Below the pieces are notes generated by a model that did not search any database, was not told the origin of the DNA, and worked only from the letters and a program-made list of their open reading frames with translations. A program made the translations under genes and the position numbers. Below are positions 25,985 to 59,573 of a stretch of 64,000 nt of DNA, one piece after another. The DNA is from Oscillibacter valericigenes Sjm18-20 (GTDB lineage Bacteria; Bacillota; Clostridia; Oscillospirales; Oscillospiraceae): NCBI GenBank assembly GCA_000283575.1, contig AP012044.1, positions 3,968,001 to 4,032,000 on the forward strand, given 5' to 3'. Numbering within the stretch: the first letter of the stretch is position 1; each line of letters opens with the position of its first letter.

Positions 25985-26067
25985 CTTACCCGTTACTCGC
26001 GGCTTATCACACAGCCGAAAAGACCGTTGACAAAAACAAACCGTATGTGTTCAGATAAGTCTCCTGT

Positions 26068-26143
26068 TGGTGACCCGGCGGGGATTCGAACCCCGGACCC
26101 ACTGCTTAAAAGGCAGTTGCTCTGCCGACTGAGCTACCGGATC
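26068..26143 (-). tRNA. tRNA-Lys(TTT)
   Basis: Complete cloverleaf with acceptor GATCCGG / CCGGGTC, anticodon loop CTTTTAA, T loop GGTTCGAATCC and encoded CCA. Last of five co-directional tRNAs. Confidence 0.97.
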
Positions 26144-26183
26144 ATGCTGTGATTCAAAGAAGAACATCACAAAGCGAAAAAGT

Positions 26184-26258
26184 TGGCTGGGACGGCTGGA
26201 CTCGAACCAGCGGATGAGGGAGTCAAAGTCCCTTGCCTTACCACTTGGCTACGCCCCA
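26184..26258 (-). tRNA. tRNA-Gln(TTG)
   Basis: Acceptor TGGGGCG / CGTCCCA, anticodon loop CTTTGAC, encoded CCA. Confidence 0.97.
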
Positions 26259-26314
26259 AGATGGAAGCGAAAACAAAGGGGAATCGGGGCAACCCCGATC
26301 CCCTCCGCTCATTC

Positions 26315-26390
26315 TGGGGTGGGTGATGGGACTCGAACCCACGACAGCCGGAACCACAATCCGGTGCTCTACCAATTGAACTACACCCAC
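26315..26390 (-). tRNA. tRNA-His(GTG)
   Basis: Acceptor GTGGGTG / CACCCAC with C73 discriminator and a G available at position -1 (26391), anticodon loop TTGTGGT, encoded CCA. Confidence 0.97.
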
Positions 26391-26443
26391 CACATATTGA
26401 TTAATCCGCACGGTCTGTACTGATGATTGACCCATAAGGGAAC

Positions 26444-26520
26444 TGGTACGCCAGAAGGGATTTGAACCCCTGGCCTACTGCTTAGAAGGCAGTTGCTCTA
26501 TCCACCTGAGCTACTGGCGC
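26444..26520 (-). tRNA. tRNA-Arg(TCT)
   Basis: Acceptor GCGCCAG / CTGGCGT, anticodon loop CTTCTAA, encoded CCA. Confidence 0.97.
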
Positions 26521-26527
26521 ATGTTGT

Positions 26528-26602
26528 TGGAGCAGGTGACGAGAATCGAACTCGCATCCCCAGCTTGGAAGGCTGGTGCCCTGACCATTGTGCTACACCT
26601 GC
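26528..26602 (-). tRNA. tRNA-Gly(TCC)
   Basis: Acceptor GCAGGTG / CACCTGC, anticodon loop CTTCCAA, encoded CCA. First tRNA of the operon. Confidence 0.97.
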
Positions 26603-26633
26603 GCGAGCCCTCCATGGAAACGTCAGCTAAAGT

Positions 26634-26662
26634 ATAATAGCATGAAATACAGTCTCTGTCAA
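26634..26662 (-). promoter_or_regulatory. tRNA operon promoter
   Basis: Reverse strand TTGACA, 17-base spacer, TATTAT, about 30 bases before tRNA-Gly. Confidence 0.88.
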
Positions 26663-26828
26663 GAAAAAAGATATCGTTTTATATATTCCACGGAGAGGTG
26701 GACAAAGTTTAATTGCGAGATTACAATGACAAGTAAGAGTTGGATTCAAAAAAGTCCCAAATTGGGTTGTGGAAAAAGCGTTGTTTGAGACGGGGGTGAC
26801 GGTATTGGAAGAAAAACAATTTGAAAAG

Positions 26829-27342
26829 CTATTGGCGCAGGCGGGCGGCCTCAAAATCGGCGTAGGTCAGGTCTTCCCTGTGTGCAATGTAGTCAATCTG
26901 CCCCTCACGGTAAAGCCGTTCCAAAAGCGTCCAGTTGTGTGGACATCGTAACCACCATGATGCTCTTCCGGTTCTTAACGTAACCAGGCTCCAAAGCCTC
27001 TAGAACCTCAATCGCAGTCATAAAGTGATAGTAATTATAATCGGGCTCCACCGCTGAATTGACTAACAACCTCGCATCCTCAATGGCAGTCAGCGCATCT
27101 TTGAAATCGGCCAGGCTGTGCCCGGCAAACTCCTTGACCGTATCAACATAGAGGGGATTTGTGACGCCGACTTCCTGTGCCAGTTCAATCATTTTGTCAA
27201 AAGCCCTATGTTCGCCGGGTTCTTCGAGGAAATCATAGCCGCCGGAGATGAAATACCCCCGATATTTTGCCTCAATGGTTAACGCTCTCATGACGGCCGG
27301 ACTATGAGCGTATGCAAAGGGCCTCACTTTATTATCTCCCAT
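26829..27342 (-). pseudogene. Frameshifted hypothetical gene
   Basis: Starts MGDNKVRPFAYAHSP after GAGGAGG. The first frame runs to about 26940, where it meets a stop. Continuation in another frame reads LLERLYREGQIDYIAHREDL and ends at 26829. Both parts look coding, so a single frameshift has split one gene of about 170 residues. I do not recognise the family. It sits between the tRNA operon and an IS3 remnant. Confidence 0.5.
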
Positions 27343-27359
27343 TGGCAACTCCTCCTCTG

Positions 27360-27677
27360 TCATGCCTTCTGCGCAGCCAAGTCTGCTTTTGTCAGACTGC
27401 TGGGGTGACAAGGAGCGCCATGGAGCAGGCCTCCACGCTTCATGGCCCGACGCACGCTGCTTCGGCTTTCCCGGATACCATGCTGTGTAAGCGCCAGAAG
27501 GATTCGGCCAACACCATAATTGTCATTGTCCGGGTTTTCATTATAAATCTCCTGCCACGGTTTTGGCTTGCCAGCCGACTGCAAAGAGCGGTAGTACCCG
27601 GATTCACTGACTTTCACAACCCGACACATGGTATGAATGCAGAACCGCTCACGGCGCAGCGTGATGTACTCATACAA
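27360..27677 (-). pseudogene. IS3 OrfB N-terminal fragment
   Basis: About 105 residues with the HTH_21-like segment (CRVVKVSESGYYRSL, YGVGRILLALTQHGI) preceding the integrase core. The DDE core is absent. Confidence 0.78.
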
Positions 27678-27688
27678 CCGCTCCGGCT

Positions 27689-27976
27689 TTACCGTTTCCG
27701 GTCTTTGGCGAAAAAGCCCAGCGCATCCTTGAGAATCTCATTGGCTTTCCGCTGTTCCGTGATTTCCTTCATCAGCCAGCGCTCGTTCTCGGAAAGCGGC
27801 GCGTCGCGGCGAATGCCGCTGCCGACGAAGGCGTGGTCTCCAAATGCCTTTCGCTTTTGCCGCCGCTCCGCCAGAGAGTAGTACGGAATGCCCAGTTGTG
27901 CCGCCGCCTGCTTCACGCCGATTTCATCGGACAGCTTGACCGCTTCTTCTTTGAACTCCTTATCATATTTGCGCAT
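27689..27976 (-). CDS. IS3-family transposase OrfA
   Basis: 95 residues: MRKYDKEFKEEAVKLSDEIG with helix-turn-helix, then a coil ending KANEILKDALGFFAKDRKR as in IS3 OrfA. ATG 27976 follows AAGGTGG. It sits next to a truncated orfB. Confidence 0.82.
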   Translation of the reverse strand: MRKYDKEFKEEAVKLSDEIGVKQAAAQLGIPYYSLAERRQKRKAFGDHAFVGSGIRRDAPLSENERWLMKEITEQRKANEILKDALGFFAKDRKR

Positions 27977-28372
27977 TGCAAACACCACCTTGTTTTTCCT
28001 TTTATTCTATCACCTTTGGGGTGTTTGTCCTCTGCACTTCTATGATATCCCTCCAGTCATTCTCAAAAAATCGCACATCCTCCGCTAAGTGGAATATATA
28101 AATATCATTTTATTTTTAATGATTATAATATTAACTACCGCTGAGCAATTATCGTTTTGAATAGAGTCGGTGTATTTACATGTACTCAGCATATTTGAAA
28201 TTGACTGAAAAGTCTTTTGGACAATCGCATATAGAGGACTTGCAACTTTTTAAAAAGTGTGTCATAATAATTGTCCAGAGTAGCGGCAATGCTGGAGCGC
28301 TATATATTTTCCCTGCAATTTTACAATCAACTGAATATTGTTTTCCCAAAGAACAATTAGTTGAACATATAT

Positions 28373-28413
28373 GGAGGAGTATCGAAGTGGTCGTAACAAG
28401 AACGACTCGAAAT
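28373..28413 (+). repeat. tRNA-Ser 5'-half fragment, copy 1
   Basis: Acceptor 5' strand GGAGGAG, D-arm TATCGAAGTGGTCGTAACA and anticodon loop CTCGAAA as in the intact tRNA-Ser at 29044; homology stops just after the loop. The 60 bases before it also match those before the intact gene (for example ACAATCAACTGAATAT). Confidence 0.82.
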
Positions 28414-28560
28414 TTTCAGGAATTTCGGTTTGGTTCTCCGCTTGGATGGCTTCAGAAGCTTTGATTTGCTGGTTTTGCAGTGGATTTGTCGTGTGTGCGC
28501 GGCGGCAGGTTCTAACACTCCGCGCAACTTTCGTTTCAGCGTTCTCTCAATTTCATATAC

Positions 28561-28602
28561 GGAGAAGTATCGAAGTGGTCATAACGAGCCGCACTCGAAA
28601 TC
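28561..28602 (+). repeat. tRNA-Ser 5'-half fragment, copy 2
   Basis: From TATCGAAGTGG through CGCACTCGAAAT it is identical to the intact gene; the acceptor strand differs (GGAGAAG). Homology stops after the anticodon loop. Confidence 0.85.
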
Positions 28603-28649
28603 ATGTTATAGTGAATAGAGTGCCGCCGTTTATGCAATAAATTAAATAT

Positions 28650-28691
28650 GGAAGCGTATCGAAGTGGTCATAACGGCCCTGACTCGAAATC
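28650..28691 (+). repeat. tRNA-Ser 5'-half fragment, copy 3
   Basis: Acceptor strand GGAAGCG identical to the intact gene, D-arm identical, anticodon stem CCTGA differs, loop CTCGAAA retained, then divergence. Confidence 0.85.
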
Positions 28692-28842
28692 GTGTAGGTC
28701 ATTGAGCATCTACTCTCCACAAACCCTTGACACGCCGGGCTTTTCCGGGGTTTTCACTCTCTTGTGAATCAGCGTATTTCTACGCTTTTTCTACGCTTTG
28801 CATTCAGTAGGTTTCTACGGGTGCGAGCCATAAATTTCATAT

Positions 28843-28884
28843 GGAGCGGTATCGAAGTGGTCATAACGGGACTGACTCGAAATC
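28843..28884 (+). repeat. tRNA-Ser 5'-half fragment, copy 4
   Basis: Acceptor strand GGAGCGG, identical D-arm, anticodon stem ACTGA, loop CTCGAAA, then unrelated sequence. Confidence 0.85.
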
Positions 28885-29043
28885 GCGTGTGGTTAGTGAT
28901 GGGGCAGGTTCGACAAAGCCTGTATTCATGCGGGTTTGCGGCTCCGGTTTTACAGCAGTTTTAATTTTCATCTTGCAGTTTTCTTGCAATTTTGCAATCA
29001 ACTGAATATCGCCTTTTCGCCGAGCAATCGGTTGAAAATACAT

Positions 29044-29132
29044 GGAAGCGTATCGAAGTGGTCATAACGAGCCGCACTCGAAATGCGGTTGTCCGCAAGG
29101 GCACGTGAGTTCGAATCTCACCGCTTCCGCCA
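29044..29132 (+). tRNA. tRNA-Ser(CGA)
   Basis: Class II tRNA with long variable arm. Acceptor GGAAGCG / CGCTTCC, anticodon loop CTCGAAA, variable stem GTCCGCAAGGGC, T loop GTTCGAATC, encoded CCA. It marks the left border of the conjugative element and is the apparent integration target. Confidence 0.95.
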
Positions 29133-29165
29133 AAACCCGCATGAACACTGCGTTTGTGCGGGTTT
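29133..29165 (+). terminator. Terminator after tRNA-Ser
   Basis: Hairpin AAACCCGCA / TGCGGGTTT followed by a T/C-rich tract, immediately after the CCA. Confidence 0.8.
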
Positions 29166-29358
29166 CTTCTTTGCCTTTTTTGCCCGCCGATCCCTGAAAA
29201 ATCATCTGAAATTGCCGTCTTGCACCCCACTTTTTGACGCTAACGATTCCCGGAAGCCTTGTGCCAAGCGGCTTCGCGGCCTTTCTGCAAGAAAATTGCA
29301 AGATGGGAAAGTCCCTTGCGTTATAAGCACATGTATGGGTTCGAATTTTTTAAAAGAT

Positions 29359-30582
29359 TTATTCCGGGTTTTCCACTTCTTCTGCTGTTCCAAGCACCTC
29401 TTCGATGGTACTGGCGCTGGCCAGCTTGCTGGTGCTGTCGATGTGTGAGTAAATATTGGCGGTGGTTGCCATGTCGGAATGTCCCAGCCAGTCCTGAATC
29501 ATTTTCATGGGAATATTGTTTGCCAGCAGAAGCGAGGCGCAGCTGTGCCGTAAATCGTGAAAGCGTATTTTTCGAAGCCCGTTTTCTTTCAGAATGACTT
29601 GAAAATGACTGCTGACATACTGTGGGGTAATCAGGCCGCCCAAGGCGTCTACGCATATGTACTCCGAATATTTTTTGTCGTAAGCACCGCGCATGACCTT
29701 CTGCATTTCCTCCTGCCTCGCCTGCTCCGCCAGAAGCTCCTCCTCAACATGAGGAATCAGCGGAAGAGTTCGGTAGGAGGATTTTGTTTTCAGCACGTCG
29801 TAGCCCTTGAGCACGATGCCGCTCTTGGTTTCCTCCTCCAGAATCTTGTGCCGGATGCTGACCGTCTTCGCGGTAAAATCCACCGCCGACCATTTCAGCC
29901 CCAACACCTCGCTGCGGCGCAGGCCGTAGTAGGCCGCCAGCATAATGACCAGGCGGATCGGATCTCCCTCGACGCAATTCAAAAGCTCTTTCAGCTCCTC
30001 GGCGTTGTAGTAGCTGCCGATGAACGGCACGGATTTAGGCCTGTCAGCTTGCAGGCAGGGATTCGTGGGAATGATGCGCCGCTTTACCGCCTGCTGGAAG
30101 GCCCTGTGCAGCATGGCGTGGTGGCGCTGCGCCGTCGTGCCCTTCAGCCCGTCGGAGCGGATCGTCGTGTAGTAAGCGTTGATTTCGTCGCCGGTGACCT
30201 CCTTTACCTTGAGCTTCATCGGCTTGAAGAAGGCCGTCATCCTGCCGTTGATCATCCGCTTGTAATTCAGGTAGGTGGAGCTTGAAATATTGGGCTTGTG
30301 CTGCTCCAGCCATTCCGGAAGATAATCTTCCACCAGCATATTGGCGATCCGGTTGCGTTCCCGTTCCGCGTGGGTCATGTTTTCCTGCAGATATAAATCC
30401 CCGACATTGTACTGCGCTAACACCTCGGCGAGCCGGTGGTTGGCCTCCGTTTTCGTGCCGCGCTTGTCCTCCAGATCGAGACTGACCCATCTTTGCTTAC
30501 GGACTCCATCTGTGTCATACAAATTTAATACGGCGTACCATTTCTGATTTTTCGTGGCCAAACGGCCTGTGATTCGTTTCAT
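29359..30582 (-). CDS. int: Tyrosine integrase of the element
   Basis: 407 residues. N-terminal arm-binding domain, core-binding SAM-like domain (about 95-190), and a catalytic domain with YYGLRRSEVLGL, HDLRHSCASLL, WLGHSDMATT and nucleophile in NIYSHID. It drives insertion and excision, presumably at tRNA-Ser 230 bases away. ATG 30582 follows AAAGGAG and overlaps the excisionase-like gene's stop in ATGA. Confidence 0.95.
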   Translation of the reverse strand: MKRITGRLATKNQKWYAVLNLYDTDGVRKQRWVSLDLEDKRGTKTEANHRLAEVLAQYNVGDLYLQENMTHAERERNRIANMLVEDYLPEWLEQHKPNISSSTYLNYKRMINGRMTAFFKPMKLKVKEVTGDEINAYYTTIRSDGLKGTTAQRHHAMLHRAFQQAVKRRIIPTNPCLQADRPKSVPFIGSYYNAEELKELLNCVEGDPIRLVIMLAAYYGLRRSEVLGLKWSAVDFTAKTVSIRHKILEEETKSGIVLKGYDVLKTKSSYRTLPLIPHVEEELLAEQARQEEMQKVMRGAYDKKYSEYICVDALGGLITPQYVSSHFQVILKENGLRKIRFHDLRHSCASLLLANNIPMKMIQDWLGHSDMATTANIYSHIDSTSKLASASTIEEVLGTAEEVENPE

Positions 30583-30896
30583 TTCCGTTCTCCTTTCGCG
30601 TGATTTTCTCCGGTACTGCCGTCGGCAGTACACACAATACCACACTCAGACGGAGAAAGCCAGGTGTCAAACGGTACAAACCTGCACGGGTTATTTTCGA
30701 CCAGAAACGCCACAACGGACAGCTTGGGGACCAGTACCTTATTGGTCACCCGGATGCTCCCCAATCGGCCGCTCCGTGCCAAGCGATAGGTTTGATTGAT
30801 ACCGATACGCAGCAATTTTGCGGTTTCCGGAACCGTGAGGACCTCCGGCTCATCCTTGAACATCGAGAGATAAACCCGTTCTGAGACAGCGATCAT
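30579..30896 (-). CDS. xis: Excisionase-like helix-turn-helix protein
   Basis: 105 residues. The MerR/Xis-like DNA-binding fold is seen in VLTVPETAKLLRIGINQTYRLARSG, the usual form of excisionases next to ICE integrases. The start MIAVSERVY at 30896 has GGAGG upstream. Coupled to int; it overlaps the end of the resolvase-like gene by about 47 bases. Confidence 0.8.
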   Translation of the reverse strand: MIAVSERVYLSMFKDEPEVLTVPETAKLLRIGINQTYRLARSGRLGSIRVTNKVLVPKLSVVAFLVENNPCRFVPFDTWLSPSECGIVCTADGSTGENHAKGERK

Positions 30897-31233
30897 ATCG
30901 AGCCCTCCCTGCGGGAATGCGTCCTTCCAAGGGAGAAAAGACTTCAATCCCAAGACTTTGAAACTCATGCGCATAACGAAGCGCCTGATTACGGTCGTGA
31001 TGAATATGGAACAGGCTGTCGACAAGAAGAGCGTCAAAACGCTTTACGGATACACCCTGTTTCAGCTTCCCCAATTCAGTATTCTGATCAAGATCAATGC
31101 TTGTTCCGACAATTTGGTATCCTAGTTGTTCAGCGAAATCATAAAGCTGCTTTTTCTGTTTTCTCAGTACGCCGTTTCGATCCTCCGGCGCATCTATGCG
31201 GCAATAAAGCCATGCTCTTTTTTTCGGTCCCAT
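30850..31233 (-). CDS. Resolvase-like protein lacking catalytic residues
   Basis: 127 residues, only the N-terminal serine-recombinase fold. The usual YxRVS is YCRID, with aspartate in place of the nucleophile serine, and the arginine motif is replaced by FHIHHD. It should not cut DNA; a regulatory or structural role next to xis/int is possible. Homology to the resolvase fold is inferred from pattern. Confidence 0.65.
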   Translation of the reverse strand: MGPKKRAWLYCRIDAPEDRNGVLRKQKKQLYDFAEQLGYQIVGTSIDLDQNTELGKLKQGVSVKRFDALLVDSLFHIHHDRNQALRYAHEFQSLGIEVFSPLEGRIPAGRARYDRCLRTGLSLDVQG

Positions 31234-31733
31234 TTATTTATACCTCCAATCTTTGTTGATATGGTTTAATCTCACAAGGGCGCGGCAGGGCTCACTTGCC
31301 CTGCCGCGTAGTTTCTAAGATTAAACAATCTACTTGTTCTTCATTTTAATGCTTCTATTCGGCACTGCTTCCCGAAGCTGGGGCGACAACATAAACGGCT
31401 TACCGGTATAGCAAGCACCATAGGAATTTCACCTCCCCCAGGATCTCTGCGAGCCGCCCCCATTGAGTGATCCCGCGGTCAAGCGGGGCTGTGGCTGGAC
31501 GGAAGTAGCATTATCACTGTCCGTTTCATTGCGAAACAGCCCACCACGGGCTGTTTTATGACCGGGCCTTGCCGCTCATCGCCTTCGATGCCATCGGTTC
31601 GACGGATGTCTGTCACCCATCCGCAGGTAGTCTTGGCGCGCCCGTCAATGTCGCTGCCGCTCATCACGGCCGGACAGATCATGTATTTATGCTGCCGGAT
31701 ATGTAATTTTCAAGGAACAGAAGGAGGAATAGA
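31234..31733. other. Non-coding region upstream of the integration module
   Basis: Contains a palindrome GCGGCAGGG / CCCTGCCGC near 31280-31308 and a terminator-like hairpin AAACAGCCC / GGGCTGTTT at 31533-31556. A reverse frame of 67 codons (31479-31682) has no clear ribosome site and is not called. Confidence 0.55.
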
Positions 31734-32566: not shown

Positions 32567-32693
32567 ACACAAGCCTACCCATGGATGGGTAGGCTTGGTG
32601 TGCGGAAATTGGCAGCCAGGCTGTCGTAGCGCTTACATCAGCACCTTAGATCCTATGGCTTTGCGTCCCTGCCTTTGGGCAGGTTTGCTCTTA
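32567..32693 (-). promoter_or_regulatory. Cyclic di-GMP-I (GEMM-I) riboswitch
   Basis: On the reverse strand: GCAAACCTGCCCAAAGGCAGG, then GACGCAAAGCC, then ATAGGATCTAAGG, then GACAGCCTGGCTGCC. This is the conserved order of the class I c-di-GMP aptamer, including the GNRA-like tetraloop arm and its receptor. Directly after it, at 32567-32603, a 13-base-arm hairpin (CAAGCCTACCCAT / ATGGGTAGGCTTG) is the likely expression platform, though it lacks an adjoining U-run. The first downstream gene is the sigma-like regulator. Confidence 0.88.
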
Positions 32694-32913
32694 ACATTTT
32701 TATAAAATTTTAATGCTTGTATATACTGTTTTTATTACAAGCTAACTCAAAAATGGATATTATTTACATAATGGCTTTATTATAATCCTTGTTTCTTAAA
32801 AATACAAGAAAATATAGCTGTTTTCGTGTATTTCAGAACATTACTATGACATATACTTACTGCAAATCGAAAAATCGCTGATAAATGATGTAGTCTCATA
32901 AGTCATAAAACGT
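32694..32913. other. AT-rich spacer upstream of the riboswitch
   Basis: About 220 bases between the aptamer and the XRE terminator. It must hold the riboswitch promoter, but I see no convincing -35/-10 pair. Confidence 0.45.
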
Positions 32914-34367: not shown

Positions 34368-36197
34368 CTATCTAATGCGGACATGCGTTTTGTCTTTATC
34401 CGAAACCTGCTGCATTGCCGGCATATGAGAGATACCTCCCGAAGCTTTTGCATCTGTCTCGGTTTCCTCCGGGACATTCTCACAGGCTGCGTTGCGCCGG
34501 ATGATTTCTGCCTCCAATGTATGGCGGTCGGCATACTCCACTTTCCGCGCGGACTGTTCTGCAATTTCATACGGTTTTCCAAAGGTAATCCCCCATTCAA
34601 GGAAGAGCTTGAGCCTGGTACGCATAGGGTAGGAGCCGGTTTTCGTCACAACGAAATGACCCTTGGGCATGGATTTCAGTTCATCCGGCGTCATCAGAGG
34701 CCGCTCAATCATCTGCAGGGACTGGCTGGGATCGTTCTTCCCGCGGCTGACGGAGCCGCTCATGACGGTCTGGCTGCCGAGGGCTTTCGATAATATCTGC
34801 GCGGAGTCACTGTTTGGAGCAAAGCCGCCGAACACAGTGTCCTGGCAATTGTCAATTATGATGGCCGAGCCTTCCTTTCCGTAGTTCTTCTCCAGTTGCG
34901 CAAAGCTCTGGATAATGGCGACAATGGATACACGGCGGGACCGTGATGCGGAGAACATCATCTCGGCCGACTCGATTTTGGGGATGGTACCAATCTCGTC
35001 TAGGAACATCATCACGCGGTTCGGCAGTTTGCCGCCATACTCGTCTGCCACAGAGAGGATTTCCCGGTAGAGCTGCTGAACAATCAGCGAAATGATGAAA
35101 TACTTGGTGTTGTCTTCCTCCGGCATGACGAGAAAGATAGCGCTTTTTTCCGTGCAGAACTTTTCCGCGTCGATGGCGGTATCAAAACACAGCACCTGCT
35201 CCAGCTCGGAATCCAAAAAGGCATTAAGCCGGGAGAGTGCTGTGGACAGGACGCTCTGCATGGCCTGTTCCGCCGTATTGAGCGCTGCCCCTGCGAACCA
35301 TTTGGTTTTATGTTCGTCCGGCAGGTGCGCCAGAAGCATCTGGAAAAGCGTCCGGCCTTTCACTCCGCTGGGCGCCAGCAGATCCTGAATGAGCTCGAAA
35401 ACCGAAACGATGTGCCGCTGCTTCGGTTCGCAGTATTCTGCAATCAGCAGAATCACAGAAGTCAGAAGCCCCTCGGCCGCGTCATAGAAGAAGGCATTCT
35501 GTCCCGCCGAGGAAACATCGAAGCCGCCGGAGTTGATGATGGTTTTGGCGGTGATCTTGGCATATTTCTCCGCTCTGGCCTTGTACGCCAGGTTTTCCGG
35601 GTTTTTCAGGTAAAGATCCATGTACCGGTTCACCAGATGGAGCAGATTGTTGCCGTCCGAGCGGGTGGGGTTGCGTAAATCGATGACCGCCACATGGTAG
35701 CCGTAGTAATCCTTTGCGATTCCCGCATAGTTGCGGTAGAGATCACCCTTGGTGTCCGTGGTTATGAAGCTCATCCCCGAAGCACAAGCGTATTCCAGAT
35801 TTGGATAGAGGAAGTTGGCGGTTTTGCCAACGCCGGCGGCGCCGATCATGAGGCAGTGGATGTCCTCATCGTCAACCAATGCATAGCCATGGGGAGCCGT
35901 CTTGTCAAACAGGGACGCTTTGCGCCAGCCGACCACCAAGCCCTGCGCATTGGGCAGATTCTTTCCCTTGCGCCATTGCTCCGGTTCATACCGTACTTCC
36001 GTATAAGTCTTTTTGATCTCATTTCTGGTTGCCCAGCGTGCTGTACCGTGCTGGCCGTCGCCCACGGTTTTGGATTTAATGCCGTTCAGGGTGTAGTAAT
36101 GCGCCAGCAGGGATATAAACCCGATAACACCGAACATGGTCAGTCCGGCGGCGATTAGGGTAATGATTTGAGATGATTGCAATGAGATCGCCTCCAT
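34368..36197 (-). CDS. virD4: VirD4/TraG-type coupling protein
   Basis: Type IV coupling ATPase that brings relaxosome DNA to the mating channel. 609 residues. Two N-terminal membrane segments, Walker A GAAGVGKTANFLYPN (about residue 120), Walker B VMMFLDEIGTIPK (about 400), and the C-terminal HFVVTKTGSYPMRTRLKLF. Length and motifs are normal for this element type. Confidence 0.95.
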   Translation of the reverse strand: MEAISLQSSQIITLIAAGLTMFGVIGFISLLAHYYTLNGIKSKTVGDGQHGTARWATRNEIKKTYTEVRYEPEQWRKGKNLPNAQGLVVGWRKASLFDKTAPHGYALVDDEDIHCLMIGAAGVGKTANFLYPNLEYACASGMSFITTDTKGDLYRNYAGIAKDYYGYHVAVIDLRNPTRSDGNNLLHLVNRYMDLYLKNPENLAYKARAEKYAKITAKTIINSGGFDVSSAGQNAFFYDAAEGLLTSVILLIAEYCEPKQRHIVSVFELIQDLLAPSGVKGRTLFQMLLAHLPDEHKTKWFAGAALNTAEQAMQSVLSTALSRLNAFLDSELEQVLCFDTAIDAEKFCTEKSAIFLVMPEEDNTKYFIISLIVQQLYREILSVADEYGGKLPNRVMMFLDEIGTIPKIESAEMMFSASRSRRVSIVAIIQSFAQLEKNYGKEGSAIIIDNCQDTVFGGFAPNSDSAQILSKALGSQTVMSGSVSRGKNDPSQSLQMIERPLMTPDELKSMPKGHFVVTKTGSYPMRTRLKLFLEWGITFGKPYEIAEQSARKVEYADRHTLEAEIIRRNAACENVPEETETDAKASGGISHMPAMQQVSDKDKTHVRIR

Positions 36198-40241: not shown

Positions 40242-43200
40242 TTAGTAAGTAGTAAACTTCTGCTCATGATCGTCCGGGGCATGGCCCTGGGCAATCTTTT
40301 TCTGACGGATCTTACGCCGCAGTTTGCTGTCAACCTGCATATGAGGACCGCCGGGGAGCCGATCCTGTTCTTCCCGGAATATCCGGCTTAGATGGTGCAG
40401 GAGCCTGGTTACAACAAGAAATAGAGACGGATCTCGGAAGGAGTCCATATGTTCCAGAAAAAATTGCGCGTATAGGTTTCCCTGTTCTGCGGATAAAGTA
40501 AGCCAGCGCACAGCGGTTTCCTTGTCACGGGGAACGTCATCCCCCATCAAATAGAGTTTTCCGAGGACGTATTGGGCATATTGATTGCCTTGTTCGGCAG
40601 AAACGGTCAGCCACCGGATGGCGGCTTCCGCATTCTTGGGAATGCTTTCTTCCTGCAGATAGAGCTTTCCAAGCTGATACTGAGCATATTGATTGCCCTG
40701 TTCGGCAGAAGCGGTCAGCCACCGAATGGCGGCCTCTGCATCCTTTGGAATGCTTTCTTCCTGCAGGTATAGTTTACCCAGCTGATACTGAGCGTACTGG
40801 TTTCCCTGTTCGGCTGATTTCTGAAAAAGTTCCAGTGCCTTCGGAATATTTTTTGGAATTTCTACCCCGTAAAGATACAGCTTTGCCAGCGCATATTGTG
40901 CGAACTGGTTGCCCAGGTCTGCGGACTTCTTCAGCCATTTAACGGCCGTATCCACATTCTCCAGGATGCTTTCCTCCTGTAGATAAAGTTTGCCAAGGGC
41001 ATAGGCCGCGTAGGAGTTGTCCTGCTCTGCAGAAGACGTAAAAAAGGCAATGGCTTGCCCGATATCCTTCTCCACATGGTTTCCATCCCGATAGAGCTTG
41101 CCGAGAGCATACTGCGCGAGGGCGTTGCCGCCGTCAGCGGATTTCATCAACCAATTGATCGCCTGCTCCGCGTTTTCATGGCCGCTGTCCGCGTCCAGAT
41201 AGATTTTGCCGAGCATGTACTGTGCGTGGATATTGCCCAGCCGGGCGGACTTTTCAAAATAACTTATTGCGGCGCTTATGTCTTTCTCTGTTCCGGTTCC
41301 GGTATAGAGCATCTGGCCGAGGCGGTACTGGAGCTTATCATAACGGCTCTGTTTTTCCATCTGCTGAAATCCCTGAAAGGCTATTTCAAAGTGCCGCTCG
41401 GCTTCCGTGCTGTTTGCGGATGTTCCGACTCCGTCCCGATACATTTTTGCCAGCTCATAATCGGCGTATGGCATATGCTGCACCGAGGCGTGCATGTACA
41501 GGTTGAATGCGGTTTCAAAGTTTTTCTCCACGCCTTGACCACGGTAATACAGTCCTGCGAGGGAATATTGGGCATATTTATGTTTTTTTGCAACCGCCTC
41601 GCTAAACCATCTGGCTGCTTCCTCGTAATCCTGTTCCGCGCCGAGCCCCGCCGCATGCATCTTGCCGATCCGGTATTCCACGTACCGGTTTTCCTTCTCC
41701 GACTCGATATCCTCAAAAGCGGCAAGGGCCTGTTTATACCAGCCGCAGGCGGTATCAGCATCCATCTCCACACCAAGCCCGTCCGCGTGCATCCGGCCGA
41801 GATCATGCATGGCGAGGGCATTGCCGTCCTCCGCTTCCTCCAGAAATAGCCGGAGGGCCTGCTTGAAATCCGGCTCCGTGTCGTCGCTTCCGAAGAGAAA
41901 GACACGGGCTTCCTTGTAACGGTCGTTCCAGGCGATGTACGGCTTTCCCACTTCACCCTCATCAGAATCCGGATGGAACCCGCCGTCCGTAACATCGGGC
42001 GGCATATCATTCTCTCGATCTCCGGTTACTCCAGATGTGTCCTGCTCCGGTTCCGGAAGAGGCAGTTCAGGATCGGCTTCCTCATCGGTTTCTTCATGAA
42101 AAGGAACATCTGCATCCTCATCGCCCTCAAATGTAAAGCGGTGACTGCCAAGGTTTACCGCTTCGGCAATCACCATGTTTTTGATCTGCTTGAATTCCTT
42201 CTGCTGGGAAAGCGGCAGGGGTTCAGGCAGTTGATCCTTATAAGTGCGCAGAACCTCGTTGCGGAGTTCCTGCCATTTGGCATAGGCTTCTGCCACCCGT
42301 TCGTCCTTTGCCAGTTCATCCACGATCTGATTGACCAGCTCCTTGAGCGGGGCCTTCAGGTAGCCGTACTGTTTTTTCCCTGTGGTGTACTGCAGCCGTT
42401 CCGCCAGCCGGGACATCATATCCTCAATGACCGGGTTCTCGCAGGTTCCGGTCCGCATCTGCTCCAGCAGCTCCCGCAGGGTATCCCGGCTCTCCGCGGT
42501 CAGAGAGTCCCGAAGCGAGGTCTGCTCGGAATAAATCTGGAGCAGATCCTGCTGAAAAATCTCCCGTGCGAGGCTGCTCCGCATCTTTTCGATGGCCGGC
42601 TTGGTGACGTATCCCTCGCGGGGATTGGCGGAGTAGACGATCATGTGGCAGTGCGGGTGATGGCCTTCATTGTGAAAAGCGGCATACCAGCGGAGATTTT
42701 CCGGTGCGATCTTCATCTGCTCCGCGAATACATTGCGCTGCTTCCGCAGGAGCGCCATCCAAGCGGCGGCGTTGTCATAGCCGAGCCGGGCGGCGTCCTC
42801 ACGCCGCAGGGAAATAATCGGCGTCCAGATATTTCCTTTGTGCCGTGCCGCTTCCTCCGCTACCCGTGACAGCACCAGAGGTGCGTCCTCATCGCTGAAC
42901 AGGCCGTGGGCGCCGAGATTTTCCACGCGGGGGCAGGTGGCAATGTAATTGACGTAGACCTCCTGATGCGAGAGCTGATCCAGATTCTGATCCAGCGCAG
43001 CGGAGATAAACTCGGAGGCGTTTTCTATGGTCGGGCTGCTTTGATAGTCCTCGTATTCAAACAGGCGGTCGGAATCCGGAAACCGCGTGAGTATCTCCGC
43101 AATGAGATCCTTTTGCTTCCTGCTGGCAGGCAACTTCCGGTTTTCCCGTGGAAGCTTTTCGACGCCCTCCCGCGTTGCTACATATGTCACCAGATTCTCC

Positions 43201-43253
43201 GCGTGTGCCGCCGCGTTTTTCAGATACCGGCACTTGAAAATGATCCGGGGCAA
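40242..43253 (-). CDS. MobP-type relaxase with C-terminal Sel1 repeats
   Basis: 1003 residues. The N-terminal relaxase domain (1-300) has a candidate nucleophile Tyr24 in LVTYVATREG and the metal-binding histidine triad in NEGHHPHCHMIVYS. A coiled, acidic linker (350-450) follows. From about 480 to 960 there are 12-13 Sel1-like repeats of about 36 residues (AQYxLGKLY..A..W...SAEQGN). It nicks oriT and leads the strand into the recipient. The Sel1 array likely docks partner proteins. Confidence 0.92.
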   Translation of the reverse strand: MPRIIFKCRYLKNAAAHAENLVTYVATREGVEKLPRENRKLPASRKQKDLIAEILTRFPDSDRLFEYEDYQSSPTIENASEFISAALDQNLDQLSHQEVYVNYIATCPRVENLGAHGLFSDEDAPLVLSRVAEEAARHKGNIWTPIISLRREDAARLGYDNAAAWMALLRKQRNVFAEQMKIAPENLRWYAAFHNEGHHPHCHMIVYSANPREGYVTKPAIEKMRSSLAREIFQQDLLQIYSEQTSLRDSLTAESRDTLRELLEQMRTGTCENPVIEDMMSRLAERLQYTTGKKQYGYLKAPLKELVNQIVDELAKDERVAEAYAKWQELRNEVLRTYKDQLPEPLPLSQQKEFKQIKNMVIAEAVNLGSHRFTFEGDEDADVPFHEETDEEADPELPLPEPEQDTSGVTGDRENDMPPDVTDGGFHPDSDEGEVGKPYIAWNDRYKEARVFLFGSDDTEPDFKQALRLFLEEAEDGNALAMHDLGRMHADGLGVEMDADTACGWYKQALAAFEDIESEKENRYVEYRIGKMHAAGLGAEQDYEEAARWFSEAVAKKHKYAQYSLAGLYYRGQGVEKNFETAFNLYMHASVQHMPYADYELAKMYRDGVGTSANSTEAERHFEIAFQGFQQMEKQSRYDKLQYRLGQMLYTGTGTEKDISAAISYFEKSARLGNIHAQYMLGKIYLDADSGHENAEQAINWLMKSADGGNALAQYALGKLYRDGNHVEKDIGQAIAFFTSSAEQDNSYAAYALGKLYLQEESILENVDTAVKWLKKSADLGNQFAQYALAKLYLYGVEIPKNIPKALELFQKSAEQGNQYAQYQLGKLYLQEESIPKDAEAAIRWLTASAEQGNQYAQYQLGKLYLQEESIPKNAEAAIRWLTVSAEQGNQYAQYVLGKLYLMGDDVPRDKETAVRWLTLSAEQGNLYAQFFLEHMDSFRDPSLFLVVTRLLHHLSRIFREEQDRLPGGPHMQVDSKLRRKIRQKKIAQGHAPDDHEQKFTTY
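40560..40790 (-). repeat. Nearly identical Sel1 repeat units
   Basis: Two to three adjacent 108-base units of the relaxase array are almost identical (NQYAQYQLGKLYLQEESIPK repeated), while other units have diverged. A recent tandem duplication is likely. Confidence 0.8.
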
Positions 43254-44800: not shown

Positions 44801-45682
44801 CTACCCCATCAGGAGGCGGTATCCGTCTGCGTTGGCAAAACGGTTCAGGACCGCCACCGTATTCAGGCCGTTACCACGCAGCCGGGACTCCAGAAGCTCG
44901 GCACCTCCGCCTGCAAACACAGTAGGAAGCCTTAAGTCCAAGCCACGTTCCCGCAGAGCGTTTAGCAGCTCCTTGCAGTAGGTGGAGACCTCACACTCCA
45001 CGACTTCTTCGATCTGCCTGCAGTCAGTATGCTGGATTTTTCCACGGATGGCATCGGTAATCAGCACATCCGAAAGAAGGATGCCACTTCGCTGGAGCGT
45101 GTCCTGTATGCGGCTGTACAGATTTATGGTTCCCATACGCAGGCTGGCGCAGCTGGATCTGTCCAGTCTGAAATGATGGACGGTAAGAACATCCACCGTG
45201 TAGCCGCCGATGTCCACCAGCGTGATGCTTCGGTATTCCTTCAGCTGCTGATAGTACCGGCAGAGCGCCGCGTGTCCCTGAGCAAACACCTTACAGTCCG
45301 TGATCCTGCAGCGATAAGCCGTCCCTTCGAACACAAACGAGAGATTGTCCCGCAAAAAGTAGCTGCGGAACGCATCCTTCTGCGTTCCGTAGCTGTCGAT
45401 GGGAAGCCCCACGCCGAGGGCAATTTCCCCATTGGCGGTCCCTGCTTTTTTCATCGCCTCCGCAATGGCCGGAAGCGTCAGGACAAAGGTGTCCTGCTCT
45501 TTGGTTTTGTCCTGCTGGAAGCGCAGGCGGCGTTCTCCAACAGCGTAATAGCTGCCCTCATAAAACAGCTGCATTTCCGGCGTAATGAATTCCTTGTCGC
45601 TCACCGCGTAACCGGAGGCGTAGAGCATCCCCAAGGATGATTTGGTGTTGTAATTTCCGTTGTCCACGCCGAGCTTAATCAT
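44801..45682 (-). CDS. parM: ParM/StbA-family actin-like ATPase
   Basis: 293 residues. Actin-fold phosphate loops: GVDNGNYNTKSS at the N-terminus, LVDIGGYTVDVLTV (about 150) and VFAGGGAELL (about 255). It polymerises to push apart DNA copies and would stabilise the element in its circular, possibly replicating form. A GGAGG site precedes the ATG. Confidence 0.88.
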   Translation of the reverse strand: MIKLGVDNGNYNTKSSLGMLYASGYAVSDKEFITPEMQLFYEGSYYAVGERRLRFQQDKTKEQDTFVLTLPAIAEAMKKAGTANGEIALGVGLPIDSYGTQKDAFRSYFLRDNLSFVFEGTAYRCRITDCKVFAQGHAALCRYYQQLKEYRSITLVDIGGYTVDVLTVHHFRLDRSSCASLRMGTINLYSRIQDTLQRSGILLSDVLITDAIRGKIQHTDCRQIEEVVECEVSTYCKELLNALRERGLDLRLPTVFAGGGAELLESRLRGNGLNTVAVLNRFANADGYRLLMG

Positions 45683-50458: not shown

Positions 50459-51247
50459 TTAGTCACCATCGTAGCAGCCACATGGCATATCGGTTTCGGG
50501 AAACATCCAGCACATGGCGGTTTGGTTTTTGTCCGCCTCCACAAAGTCCTGCCATGACCAATCCCGCCCAAGCCCTTTTACGCGGATGAGGTTTGGTTTT
50601 GCGCCGTTTTCGATGGCGATGGCCCGGTCATATAAATCCCGGTGCTGGTGATAAAGGGTACGGATTTCACTCTTTTTCATGCTGGGACAGAAGAAGCAGG
50701 AGGACTTGCCGGGCAGCGGCAAACCCTCCTGCTTGATTGTTACAATACAATCCTCCCTGAACCAGCCCCAATCAATGAGCGGATATTCCTTTTTATATTT
50801 CTTATCCTGCATGTCATAGACAATGGCATGATCACGCCGCCGTTCCTCTCCGGCATCAAAGCCGATAAATTTCGTAACGCGCCCGCCATGCTTCCATACG
50901 TCCAGACAGGGCTGGTAGTGGTTGCAGAATTTGTCCTGCGGGCCTACCTTGTGTTTCAGCGAACATTTTTTATAGCCATAGGCGATGGCCGGCAGAGTTC
51001 CGGAGCGGAGGCATTCATCCTCCAGTGTCAGGCGGTCGCCGTTTTGGTCCGTATATTCTACCGGCGTGATTTCCGGCATCCCATGCTCCGAAAGCCATCG
51101 GTTCATAACGGGAAGGTAATCATAGGTATGCGGTTGTTCGCACCCTGTATCCGAAAAAAGAATCAGATCCACGGGAATGTCCCTTTGCTGCAGACCGATC
51201 AGCATGGCGGTGCTGTTGGTGCCTCCACCGTATCCGACGATATTCAT
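50459..51247 (-). CDS. PP-loop (PAPS-reductase-like) protein
   Basis: 262 residues. The nucleotide-binding PP-loop is in VGYGGGTNSTAMLIG. Cysteine pairs KSSCFFCPSMKK and PCGCYDGD could bind a metal or iron-sulfur cluster. Similar PAPS-reductase-like proteins in mobile DNA act in DNA or nucleotide modification rather than sulfur assimilation; no reductase partner is present. The ATG overlaps the VirB4 stop (ATGA). Confidence 0.82.
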   Translation of the reverse strand: MNIVGYGGGTNSTAMLIGLQQRDIPVDLILFSDTGCEQPHTYDYLPVMNRWLSEHGMPEITPVEYTDQNGDRLTLEDECLRSGTLPAIAYGYKKCSLKHKVGPQDKFCNHYQPCLDVWKHGGRVTKFIGFDAGEERRRDHAIVYDMQDKKYKKEYPLIDWGWFREDCIVTIKQEGLPLPGKSSCFFCPSMKKSEIRTLYHQHRDLYDRAIAIENGAKPNLIRVKGLGRDWSWQDFVEADKNQTAMCWMFPETDMPCGCYDGD

Positions 51248-53073
51248 CGGCCACCTGCCTTTCCAAACAGTTTTGCCTTATATTCTGGAGCCTGAACCAC
51301 GAGGTTGTATCTTTCGTTGCCGCATTTGTACAGGCACACGCCGCGCTGTGGATAGCGGATCAGGTTGTATTCCGATTCCTCCAGCTGAAGCGTATCCATG
51401 TAGAACCGCTTGTCGATGTTGCCGGCGTTAAACAGGAACGCATGAGCCGGAATGGAGAACAGCGGCTTTGTATACTCGCGTATTCCTTCCAGATTGAAAT
51501 CCTCCAGATTCTGTGATGAAAGAATGACGGCACTGTCTTTTTTTCTGACGCGCTTCATGAAATTCCGGACGTATTCCACAGCGGTCAGGTTGGAAAGAAA
51601 CAGGTAAAATTCATCGATGCTGGCGGCGGTATTTCCTGTTGTAAGGAGTTCATTGCTCATGAAAGACAGAACATTAAACAGCATCGCGTTCCGCAGGCTT
51701 TTGCTGGCCTGCAGAAGTCCCTTGACGCCAAAGGTCACAAACTCATTGCTGTTGATGTTGGAGTGTCCGTTGAAGAATTTTGACTCGGCGCCCTTGCACA
51801 TGGAATGAAGGCCAAGGCAGATTTCCCGCAGGATATCGTCGGTGTAGAGCTGTCGTTTGCCTTTATCAAAGTTTGTATATTCCTGCTCAATCAGATCGTA
51901 CAGATCAGAAAGGATCGGGTAATCGTCAGGCTTTAAGCGGTCGAAGTTGCTGTGATCACTGATACCCCATTTGTCATAGAGCTTGCCCAGCATGATCTCA
52001 ATCGTATCGATCTGACGGTCATCAAAATCCTTATAGGTTCGGAAAAAATCCTTTAAAAAACTGATGTGCTGGCTGAGCTTGGAGGTTTGCCGGAACGCCT
52101 GCGGCGCTCCCGTATCCTTGGGATCGCCGGTTTCATCCCAGGTCTTTGGCTCCAGAACGTTGATGATGTACTCGCCGGTCATGAGGTCAATAAAACATCC
52201 GCCCAGGTTGTTCGTCAGTTCCTCGAACTCCATCTCCGGGTCCAGGCAGATGATTTTCATTCCGGATTCCCTGAGATTGCAGAGAATGAGCTTAAGCAGA
52301 TAACTTTTACCCTGGCCGGAGTTGCCTAATATGAGAATGTTGGCGTTGGTTTTGTCATCGGCCCGGCGGTTAAAATCCACAAGCACATTGCTGCCGAATT
52401 TATCCCGGCCGAGGCAGAAGCCGTTTGGGTCGGTTTTTCCGGAATAATTGAAGGAATAAAGGTTGGCGACGGAGCTGGCCGGAAGCACCCGTTCAAACTG
52501 ATCCCTGAACACATTCCATCCGGATGGCATTACGGAGAGGAAGCCCTGCTGCTGCCGCAGCAGGAGCCTGTCCACGTTGAGTTTCGAGCGAACCAGCTCA
52601 GTCAGCACCTCGGTCTGCAGAAGCTTCAGCTGATCGGGATCATTGGCGAAAAGTTCGATATAGACCGCCGTGTGGAGAAGCGGTTCCTTGCTCCGGTGCA
52701 TCTGCGCCACAATATTGGTGACGTCCTGCAGGTTGCTCTCAGCTGTTACTGTCTGCTGGAGATCCTGGGTGCTGCTCCGCTGCATCCGGTTCTTGTTGGC
52801 GGCATTGCTGATAATTTTCTTTTCCTCCACCGGGGAAACATGCCGGGTGTAGATGTGCAGGGTCACGCCTTCCTTCTCGCCCAAATAACGCAGAATGGCC
52901 TGTTCATCGGTTGAGGTTGGATATTCCCGCAATGCCCAAACGCAGCGGAACATGTTGCCGCAGATGAAGTGGTCGGTGTTGAATTTTATAATGGAGGGCG
53001 CGACCATATCAAGGAATTCCTGAATGCGGGTATCCTCCTGCGGCGGGGATTTGGTGGTTGGATTTCTTGCCAT
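51244..53073 (-). CDS. virB4: VirB4-family conjugation ATPase
   Basis: 609 residues. Walker A LILGNSGQGKSYLLK (about 255), conserved IICLDPEMEFEEL, Walker-B region TAASIDEFYLFLSN, and ILSSQNLEDF. Energises assembly of the mating channel. The size is normal for clostridial element VirB4 proteins. It is separated from its usual neighbours at 55.2 kb by an opposite-strand cargo block. Confidence 0.93.
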   Translation of the reverse strand: MARNPTTKSPPQEDTRIQEFLDMVAPSIIKFNTDHFICGNMFRCVWALREYPTSTDEQAILRYLGEKEGVTLHIYTRHVSPVEEKKIISNAANKNRMQRSSTQDLQQTVTAESNLQDVTNIVAQMHRSKEPLLHTAVYIELFANDPDQLKLLQTEVLTELVRSKLNVDRLLLRQQQGFLSVMPSGWNVFRDQFERVLPASSVANLYSFNYSGKTDPNGFCLGRDKFGSNVLVDFNRRADDKTNANILILGNSGQGKSYLLKLILCNLRESGMKIICLDPEMEFEELTNNLGGCFIDLMTGEYIINVLEPKTWDETGDPKDTGAPQAFRQTSKLSQHISFLKDFFRTYKDFDDRQIDTIEIMLGKLYDKWGISDHSNFDRLKPDDYPILSDLYDLIEQEYTNFDKGKRQLYTDDILREICLGLHSMCKGAESKFFNGHSNINSNEFVTFGVKGLLQASKSLRNAMLFNVLSFMSNELLTTGNTAASIDEFYLFLSNLTAVEYVRNFMKRVRKKDSAVILSSQNLEDFNLEGIREYTKPLFSIPAHAFLFNAGNIDKRFYMDTLQLEESEYNLIRYPQRGVCLYKCGNERYNLVVQAPEYKAKLFGKAGGR

Positions 53074-58114: not shown

Positions 58115-58677
58115 AGCTGCAGTTCCATGCCAAAAGAAGGCGCTTCCTCCGGCGTGATCTCCATTTCTTCCGGGAAATACTGTACCGTCCGGTTAACAGG
58201 CCCCATCCGGTCGTTCAGACGTTTGGCTTCCGCAGCTGCTTCTTCATACGTGTTGAAGGGCATCGGTTTGCCATCCTGCTTAAGCCAGCTTTCCGCAGCT
58301 CCGCAGATGGACGCGGCGCTCCGGCGTGCCAGTATACCGTATTGTTTCGCAGGAGCTTGGCTTTGTATCTGTTCTGCAGACAGGTACCGGATGGTAATCC
58401 CCAGCCGCTTGGCCTCAGCAATTTCACAGCTCATCCCATGGCTGATCCGGTCGCCGCACACCCATAATTCCTCACACGAGGCCAGCACCCGTAGTCCCAT
58501 CCGGATACCGGCCTCCCGTTCCGACGGAACGGCGTCATTCAGGATCTGCAGATACAGAAGATGGACGGCAATCGGAGCGCAGCCTTGCTTCACCGCATAA
58601 CGGCACGCGGACTTTGCAAATTTGATATTGTTTTCGATATCCCCGGCATAAGGGGAACAGATATACACCAGCTTCAT
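58111..58677 (-). CDS. DUF4406/nucleoside-deoxyribosyltransferase-like protein
   Basis: 188 residues. KLVYICSPYAGDIENNI, LHLLYLQILND and CEELWVCGDRISHGMSCEI are the DUF4406 pattern, a fold related to nucleoside 2-deoxyribosyltransferases. A second part (PMPFNTYEEAAAEAKRLND) may be a separate small domain. It overlaps both neighbours by 4 bases, so it is embedded in the transfer operon. Confidence 0.82.
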   Translation of the reverse strand: MKLVYICSPYAGDIENNIKFAKSACRYAVKQGCAPIAVHLLYLQILNDAVPSEREAGIRMGLRVLASCEELWVCGDRISHGMSCEIAEAKRLGITIRYLSAEQIQSQAPAKQYGILARRSAASICGAAESWLKQDGKPMPFNTYEEAAAEAKRLNDRMGPVNRTVQYFPEEMEITPEEAPSFGMELQL

Positions 58678-59573
58678 TTCCCCACCGCCCTTACAATGGT
58701 GCGTGTGATGTTCATCGCGGTCTGCCCGGCGTAGACGGCGCTCATGAAGTTGGCCCGGGTGCTGGTATCCAGTCCAAACGCTCCGGCGATACGGGGTATT
58801 TCTCCGGCAGCAAGCATCAACCCGAGCCCCAGCAGGACATTATCTTTTAATACCATAAGCCCCGCGATGAGGATGGTGGATTGGAGGAACGCGGTCAGGC
58901 ACAAGCCGATGATCTGCTTGCACCAGCTCACAAAGCCATCCATGTATCCCCTCGGAACACTGAACATATACAGGCTGCCTACCGCGATCTGGATAAGCAG
59001 AATGCCGCCGCGCTTCAGGTTTGCGAAAAACACCTTGATTACGGCGTAGCCCATCATGATGAGGATAAAGAGCAGCATGATGGGATTGAGTGAAGCACCG
59101 GTGCCAAACACACCGGAAGACGCCGCACTTGTCAGGTCCCCCGAAGTGGAAAGACCGTTTATAATGTTGCCGGCCAGAGTGTCTATACCGGTGCCGGCCC
59201 CGGTGATCCCTGCTGTGAAGCTGCTCTGCAGGGAAACGGACAGCTTATACAGTTCCACCGGAACCGTGGAGAACAGCCCCACGGCAAGAAAGCCTTTAAG
59301 GTTATTGAGCATCGTATCCTTCACGCTGCCACGGCCGGACTGGTATTCAATGCCGCACTCAAAAACCGACACCACCAGTCCTGTGCCATAAAGAGCCCAC
59401 GCCAGATAAACAAAGAACAGCACAATAGACTGTACCCATGCCATATCAAACAGATCGGCACCCATGTTGCCCATGGATGCAAAAAAATCACCGAGGAACC
59501 CGATGATCTGGCTGTAAACCCAATCCAGAATCTGCCCAAGCACGGTATCTGCCGCAAAATCCCATATGAACAT
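58674..59573 (-). CDS. VirB6/TrbL-like channel protein
   Basis: 299 residues, five to seven membrane helices, with an extracellular glycine/serine loop near the middle (GITGAGTGIDTLAGN). Polytopic core protein of the mating channel. The ribosome site GGAGG precedes the ATG. Confidence 0.86.
   Translation of the reverse strand: MFIWDFAADTVLGQILDWVYSQIIGFLGDFFASMGNMGADLFDMAWVQSIVLFFVYLAWALYGTGLVVSVFECGIEYQSGRGSVKDTMLNNLKGFLAVGLFSTVPVELYKLSVSLQSSFTAGITGAGTGIDTLAGNIINGLSTSGDLTSAASSGVFGTGASLNPIMLLFILIMMGYAVIKVFFANLKRGGILLIQIAVGSLYMFSVPRGYMDGFVSWCKQIIGLCLTAFLQSTILIAGLMVLKDNVLLGLGLMLAAGEIPRIAGAFGLDTSTRANFMSAVYAGQTAMNITRTIVRAVGK

Follow-up and report, generated by a model that had tools for sequence, protein, structure and literature searches.

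A series of displaced tRNA-Ser(CGA) halves in Oscillibacter valericigenes, read as the record of successive elements carrying whole replacement tRNA genes

Upstream of one intact tRNA-Ser(CGA) gene of Oscillibacter valericigenes Sjm18-20 lie four 5′ halves of tRNA-Ser(CGA), each ending at CTCGAAAT. This array is very probably the record of at least four takeovers, probably five, in which a single tRNA-Ser(CGA) locus passed in succession to elements that carried a whole replacement gene. Direct support comes from the two halves of the last target, from the whole tRNA gene inside the live element and from the same layout in relatives, as well as from the nesting of elements in two relatives and from single, fragment-free genes in two genomes of the same genus. 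The stretch of DNA that was analysed (the window) is 64,000 nucleotides long and corresponds to C1:3968001-4032000 in a 4.47-Mb genome of 2 contigs. Positions are given in window numbering unless preceded by C1.

The array copies are all encoded on the + strand, and each fragment contains the acceptor 5′ strand, the D-arm and the anticodon loop. Fragments 1 (28373..28413, acceptor GGAGGAG), 2 (28561..28601, acceptor GGAGAAG) and 3 (28650..28690, acceptor GGAAGCG) are displaced 5′ halves. Fragment 4 (28843..28883, acceptor GGAGCGG; core at 28876-28883) is the 5′ half of the tRNA gene split by the live element and forms its left junction. The intact gene (29044..29132, acceptor GGAAGCG) is the whole, element-borne replacement. 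A first-pass annotation of the sequence had located in the interval 28314-29132 four fragments that copy the intact tRNA-Ser and end after the loop. The fragments are indeed there and all stop at CTCGAAAT, but the interval covers the array alone and the element runs on to C1:4063284. The statement that stems differ between copies stands for the fragments, whose anticodon stems differ among themselves, but not for fragment 2 and the intact gene, which have the anticodon stem CCGCA in common. Searching the 4.47-Mb genome for TATCGAAGTGGTCRTAAC with up to two mismatches gave 6 matches, five of them array copies including the intact gene (control with the sequence read backward: 0 matches). The gene at 29044-29132 is the sole Ser(CGA) gene found in the genome, the other Ser genes being GGA, GCT and TGA. 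A Ser(TGA) tRNA might read the codon of Ser(CGA) by wobble. No native 5′ half was found further upstream, in 26001-28372, where the best ungapped match was 21/41. The ~1.6 kb that separate the array from the upstream tRNA cluster (window 26663-28306) did not align to the relatives compared.

The live element is a 66,401-bp insertion that extends from fragment 4 to C1:4063284 (window-equivalent 95284) and ends outside the window. At its far end (C1:4063277-4063332) there is the 3′ half of a tRNA-Ser, and the sequence before it is not tRNA. This half pairs with fragment 4 at 7/7 acceptor and 5/5 anticodon stem positions, compared to 5+3, 5+2 and 4+4 pairs for fragments 1, 2 and 3, respectively, and fragment 4 is the only 5′ half present here, that of the intact gene included, with which its pairing is perfect. 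When fragment 4 was joined to the far 3′ half, ARAGORN recognized a tRNA-Ser(CGA) from its first base. The same operation with fragment 3 gave a tRNA one base short, and no tRNA was detected with fragments 1 and 2 or with the 5′ half of the intact gene, whose own halves fit each other (GGAAGCG/CGCTTCC). A tRNA-Ser(CGA) gene with fragment 4 as its 5′ half is cut in two by the 66,401-bp insertion. Since the far 3′ half fits fragment 4, both halves of the old gene were displaced and the element brought the intact gene in its entirety, contrary to the initial proposal that each element replaces the 5′ half. The two ends of the element have a 27-bp repeat in common (28970-28996 and C1:4063071-4063097, 96% identity). 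What the reconstructed attachment site has in common with the split tRNA is limited to the 9 bp of CTCGAAATC. The replacement tRNA gene lies 160 bp inside the left junction and is followed, at a distance of 226 bp, by a convergent tyrosine integrase gene. The locus thereby combines short-core integration inside a tRNA gene that was not rebuilt at the junction (fragment 4 and the far 3′ half) with a whole cognate tRNA gene, Ser(CGA), carried inside the element at 29044-29132.

The gene content of the element is that of a conjugative one. The tyrosine integrase is encoded at 29359..30645 (−; PF00589, 2.3e-25; PF14659). Between it and the tRNA gene an inverted copy of an arm repeat (29286..29305, −; 95% over 20 bp to 28969-28988 reversed) is a possible arm site of the integrase. 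A type IV coupling protein (34368..36197, −; PF02534, 3.2e-45), a MobL relaxase with Sel1 repeats (40242..43253, −; PF18555, 1.7e-34; PF08238), a conjugation-type ATPase (AAA_10/P-loop_TraG; 51244..53073, −; PF12846, 2.6e-10) and a TrbL conjugal transfer protein (58674..59573, −; PF19511, 9.9e-149) follow, in accordance with the first-pass annotation, which had put the live element on the 3′ side. One unit with two mapped ends thus holds the integrase and relaxase genes together with those for the coupling protein and type IV secretion, and we classify it as a putative integrative conjugative element (ICE) for which excision and transfer are predicted from the genes. Coupling protein, MobL relaxase and TrbL set it apart from a temperate phage, and no phage structural family was found among 28 scanned proteins, a subset of the element ORFs. 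The element also encodes an amidoligase-family protein (49377-50261, −) and an actin-like protein (44801-45682, −), and includes a pemK RNA motif (window 31418-31514, −) and a c-di-GMP-I riboswitch (window 32608-32699, −), both above the Rfam gathering score. In its part at C1:4049204-4061264 (L020, L006), genes for two ArdA-like proteins, one of them below the Pfam cut-off, are adjacent to N6-methylase/BpuSI-like restriction genes. Beyond the far 3′ half on the right, the segment C1:4063711-4081285 (L015) codes for a SNF2 helicase, a VapE-like protein, a DNA polymerase A and a DUF2800 protein, which are phage-type replication genes, and further right for an integrase beside a tRNA-Pro gene. 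It is perhaps a truncated prophage.

The following sequence of events would generate such a locus. An incoming element would integrate, by means of its tyrosine integrase, in the anticodon loop of the resident tRNA gene and split it. The resident 5′ half would be left behind at the left and the 3′ half moved past the right end of the element. The attachment site of the element would carry no tRNA half, and a complete, different tRNA-Ser(CGA) gene located just inside its left end would take over. As the replacement gene has the same anticodon loop, the next element would insert into it and leave another 5′ half and left arm at the left. The bodies would become nested rightward and later be deleted, while the current tRNA gene and the left fragments would stay. 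Catalysis by the integrase found here and expression of the replacement tRNA are predictions from sequence; the oldest arrival is presumably the one at the left, and the deletions that removed the earlier bodies probably took place on the right side of the tRNA gene current at the time. Serial integration by different elements with exchange in the anticodon loop, as proposed at first reading, is retained in this scheme. The accompanying idea that element bodies were lost also fits: the genome contains no further 3′ half that corresponds to the searched pattern. The suggestion that intact elements might be found between the fragments does not, since the bodies lay to their right. One exact pattern searched genome-wide found just two 3′ halves, that of the intact gene and the far one, and a T-loop motif scan of C1:4032000-4051999 and C1:4055000-4162999, which strongly decayed halves could escape, found no further tRNA-like half. 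No 3′ halves for fragments 1-3 were found in the genome, which counts against the succession.

The spacers between the fragments are best read as the left arms of successive elements. Arm D (28884..29043, +), the left arm of the live element, contains the repeat 28970-28996 that recurs at the right end and matches the arm of a Caproiciproducens galactitolivorans YR-4 element at 90% identity over 160 bp. The sequence upstream of fragment 1 (28307..28372, +) resembles this arm. Copy 1 with its upstream region (28308-28413) aligns to the intact gene with its own (28979-29084) at 78.7% over 108 bp, which substantiates the ~60 shared upstream bases reported in the first-pass annotation, and to the C. 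galactitolivorans YR-4 element at 79.8% over 109 bp. As the sequence preceding fragment 1 is arm-D-like, the tRNA gene from which this fragment derives was probably itself element-borne. Recurring arms together with that sequence give the estimate of at least four takeovers, probably five if the latter is counted. Arm C (28691..28842, +) is similar to left arms of elements from Clostridium viride and from C. galactitolivorans BS-1 (to L143 and L116, 73.8% over 84 bp) and to right ends in L075 and L195 (92.9% over 28 bp). For arms A and B the assignment is one that we infer. Arm A (28414..28560, +) is presumed from its position to be the left arm of the element by which the fragment 2 tRNA was introduced; a search of 300 family genomes for its relatives found only arm A itself. 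Arm B (28602..28649, +), 48 bp long, is a presumed short left arm judging by the size of the interval, and intervals of 37-48 bp are also present in G216, G066, G254, G222, G027, G039 and G105; sequence comparison gave no useful relative. An element relative was recognised for neither arm A nor arm B, which counts against the succession. The distance separating a half from the half or gene that follows it is 37-173 bp in 28 of 29 intervals and 421 bp in one, in a set taken from hand-picked, not random, loci, with two rows representing the same place and a 700-bp limit that excluded the larger gap of L062. The crowding of the fragments is explained by the position of each replacement tRNA just inside the left end of its element. 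Comparison of window 28884-31221 with L106 (C. galactitolivorans YR-4) showed 91% DNA identity in the integrase region and 90% in the arm, with clearly different tRNA-Ser(CGA) genes and different sequence directly after, as if the tRNA cassette had been exchanged.

Genomes of the same genus provide the fragment-free condition. G291 and G210 have a single GCAGCGG..CCGCTGC gene beside the same upstream tRNA cluster (Lys-Gln-His-Arg-Gly; 81.6% and 84.4% DNA identity), with no fragments, and we read this as the native state. An element-free relative with the same array, named in the first-pass annotation as the observation that would speak against integration, was not encountered in these two genomes. 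G254, also of the same genus, has a different array with three halves. Among 300 family genomes, that of O. valericigenes Sjm18-20 included, the 5′-half pattern was matched in 162 and at least twice in 23; at least 17 have two or more matches at one locus (14 by coordinates and 3 by loci). The ORFs of the G291, G210, G253 and G128 loci include no match to the region right of the element, so that the exact empty site of the present genome does not emerge from this comparison, a point against the scheme. In L079 (G209 C29, minus strand, ~1321) an arm and a replacement tRNA of this kind follow CTCGAAAT without a preceding tRNA half, at what is perhaps a secondary integration site. In L070 (G118) the element-borne tRNA is of another Ser(CGA) type (GGAGATGTACCCAAG..) and a decayed core ATTCGAAAT lies between it and the displaced half; a tRNA gene of the L070 type is itself cut at the loop in L062 (G253).

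The pairing of displaced halves was compared in nine genomes with a known displaced 5′ half and a separate 3′ half (G000, G132, G160, G027, G118, G039, G216, G117 and G302), the 3′-half counts in relatives resting on a pattern compatible with a normal CTCCGCCA end. The stems are too similar to discriminate in G216, G117 and G302. In all six discriminating genomes (G000, G132, G160, G027, G118 and G039) the far half is fully complementary to a displaced half, which pairs less well with the intact gene. In G039 it is the outer fragment, not the inner one, that fits the far half, which counts against the scheme. Of the nine, only G000, G132, G160 and G302 have the far half on the same contig; in G027, G118 and G039 it is on another one, which likewise counts against the scheme. 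In G160 (125 kb) the right end of the inner element joins the 3′ half of the tRNA of another element, whose integrase gene lies 181 bp further on. The same junction is found in G302 (C. galactitolivorans BS-1; inner element of 63 kb), with the other integrase 220 bp on. In both genomes one element is inserted inside the replacement tRNA of another. G160 is devoid of one expected 5′ half and the outer 5′ half of G302 has no perfect partner, and these incomplete nestings, which count against the scheme, mean that later losses must be assumed.

The arrangement extends beyond tRNA-Ser(CGA). The best 80 of 570 related stretches were kept, and in 53 of them ARAGORN detected a convergent tRNA gene within 420 bp of the integrase, the other 27 having none, some for short sequence. 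In 31 of these 53 loci a 5′ half that stops at the anticodon loop was found upstream, for nine isoacceptors: Ser(CGA) in 11, Leu(CAA) in 7, Ser(TGA), Leu(TAA) and Phe(GAA) in 3 each, and Gln(CTG), Gln(TTG), Leu(CAG) and Arg(TCG) in one each. Controls gave 0/1060 with shuffled sequences and 1/1814 with other isotypes. The scored 5′ half is absent in 22 of the 53 loci, which counts against the scheme. A compact example is L141 (9.7 kb), where the two halves of a tRNA-Leu(UAA) gene are displaced and a whole gene distinct from them lies inside. Counted on the other side are L151 and L129, where related integrases beside tRNA-Leu(TAA) and tRNA-Tyr are accompanied by a displaced 3′ fragment only and which look like ordinary regenerating insertions within the same integrase family, and a Paenibacillus tRNA-Leu(CAG) locus whose 5′ half was found and whose far 3′ half was not found with two patterns. 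In viral contigs, 46 related loci had a tRNA gene within 600 bp in five cases and a displaced half in none, two of them having too little sequence.

The single remaining 3′ half would also be accounted for if the same succession had taken place and the older bodies had been excised site-specifically, between the core of the replacement tRNA and the far right junction, leaving chimeric tRNAs composed of an element 5′ half and an older 3′ half, instead of being lost through ordinary deletions. Fragment 3 with the far half still being nearly a tRNA, and the intact gene of L089 pairing GGAGGTG with CGCCTCC by way of a G-U pair, agree with such an exchange. Fragments 1 and 2 do not form tRNAs with the far half, and the phage replication module to its right looks more like the result of plain deletion, so that we regard this route of body loss as unlikely. 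The exact conservation of CTCGAAAT in 4/4 fragments could alternatively mean that the array is kept for use, its half sites acting as decoys that titrate integrase or as a source of tRNA-half RNAs. The halves lack the second anticodon-stem strand of a symmetric site, decayed halves are present in G160 and decayed cores in G118/G253, and one promoter-like site was found in the region against 1.9 expected; a retained function is very unlikely. Hardly any more credible is the view that the attachment site of each element carries a 5′ half only, the intact gene being an element 5′ half fused to the host 3′ half and the bodies lying between the fragments. It would explain that the fragments are 5′ halves terminating at the loop, and related integrases do make regenerating insertions, there with 3′ halves. 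However, the 3′ half of the intact gene fits its own 5′ half, the reconstructed attachment site has just 9 bp in common with the tRNA, and the genes for integrase and conjugation lie 3′ of the array. The left-over 3′ half at the far right end contradicts half-replacement by each element. Local tRNA duplication or gene conversion in the absence of mobile elements, suggested by the proximity and common direction of the copies, is contradicted by stems that both differ between copies, by homology that stops exactly at the loop and by dissimilar arms that recur as element ends elsewhere and are followed by integrases, and has next to no probability.

Succession by elements with whole replacement tRNAs belongs to a mechanism class that is already known. 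The closest description is that of tRNA-dependent lysogeny in the actinobacteriophages Fionnbharth, LeBron and Gaia (PMC10865867), where, as here, a tyrosine integrase uses an attB in a tRNA gene, the common core is short (8-17 bp), the tRNA is not rebuilt, a whole cognate tRNA is carried and related integrases occur both with and without tRNA rebuilding. That account concerns temperate phages of Actinobacteria in which the need for the tRNA was demonstrated, in contrast to a putative ICE of Clostridia that is known from sequence and forms serial arrays; its authors speculate that a second plasmid may use the carried tRNA as attB. The Pasteurellaceae elements ICEPmu1 and ICEMh1 (ICEHin1056-related) are described to split a tRNA-Leu at the anticodon loop, with 11-13 bp repeats, and show the disrupted gene at both ends and an intact copy inside one, as in the present case; a further disrupted copy directly upstream of the intact gene is mentioned (PMC6028734, PMC6861422). 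As presented there they differ by one isoacceptor, another host class and integrase set, and one disrupted copy with no series. The likeness to the ICEHin1056-like family is drawn from anatomy in these two reports. The tDNA islands catalogued by Islander (PMC4383910) likewise combine a tyrosine integrase, an anticodon-loop subsite and a displaced fragment marking the end, and include 125 tandem arrays of two or more and 4 of three or more. In that description a tDNA fragment in attP restores the gene and one fragment is displaced, whereas the present element displaces the two halves, brings a whole gene along and has loop sequence only in its reconstructed attP. The Lactobacillus johnsonii prophage Lj965 is reported to encode a cognate tRNA and not to rebuild the one it enters (as cited in PMC10865867). 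Lj965 is, like the element studied here, found in a Firmicute, and differs from it in being a single prophage. We know of no array for Lj965. No description of displaced halves arranged in series came up in our literature search, an absence that carries little weight. What is new is the serial succession that leaves a readable array, in Clostridia.

Islands are described as rebuilding the tRNA gene that they enter (PMC4383910, PMC8371274), and how common whole-gene replacement is outside actinobacteriophages is a question raised in PMC10865867. Among the best 80 of 570 related stretches, one integrase family replaces whole tRNAs in many Clostridia, for nine isoacceptors. As the same family has regenerating members, the switch between the two strategies is testable. 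Such loci may mislead island finders built on the assumption of one fragment per insertion, and likewise counts and trees of tRNA genes. The tRNA gene is probably a mobile and self-perpetuating trait of these elements, which would destroy the resident gene and install their own as the next landing site; because the native gene is gone, the replacement would outlive the element that brought it. A conserved chromosomal tRNA gene would in this way be repeatedly replaced by foreign alleles, and the fragments at its left would be the ordered fossil record of these replacements.
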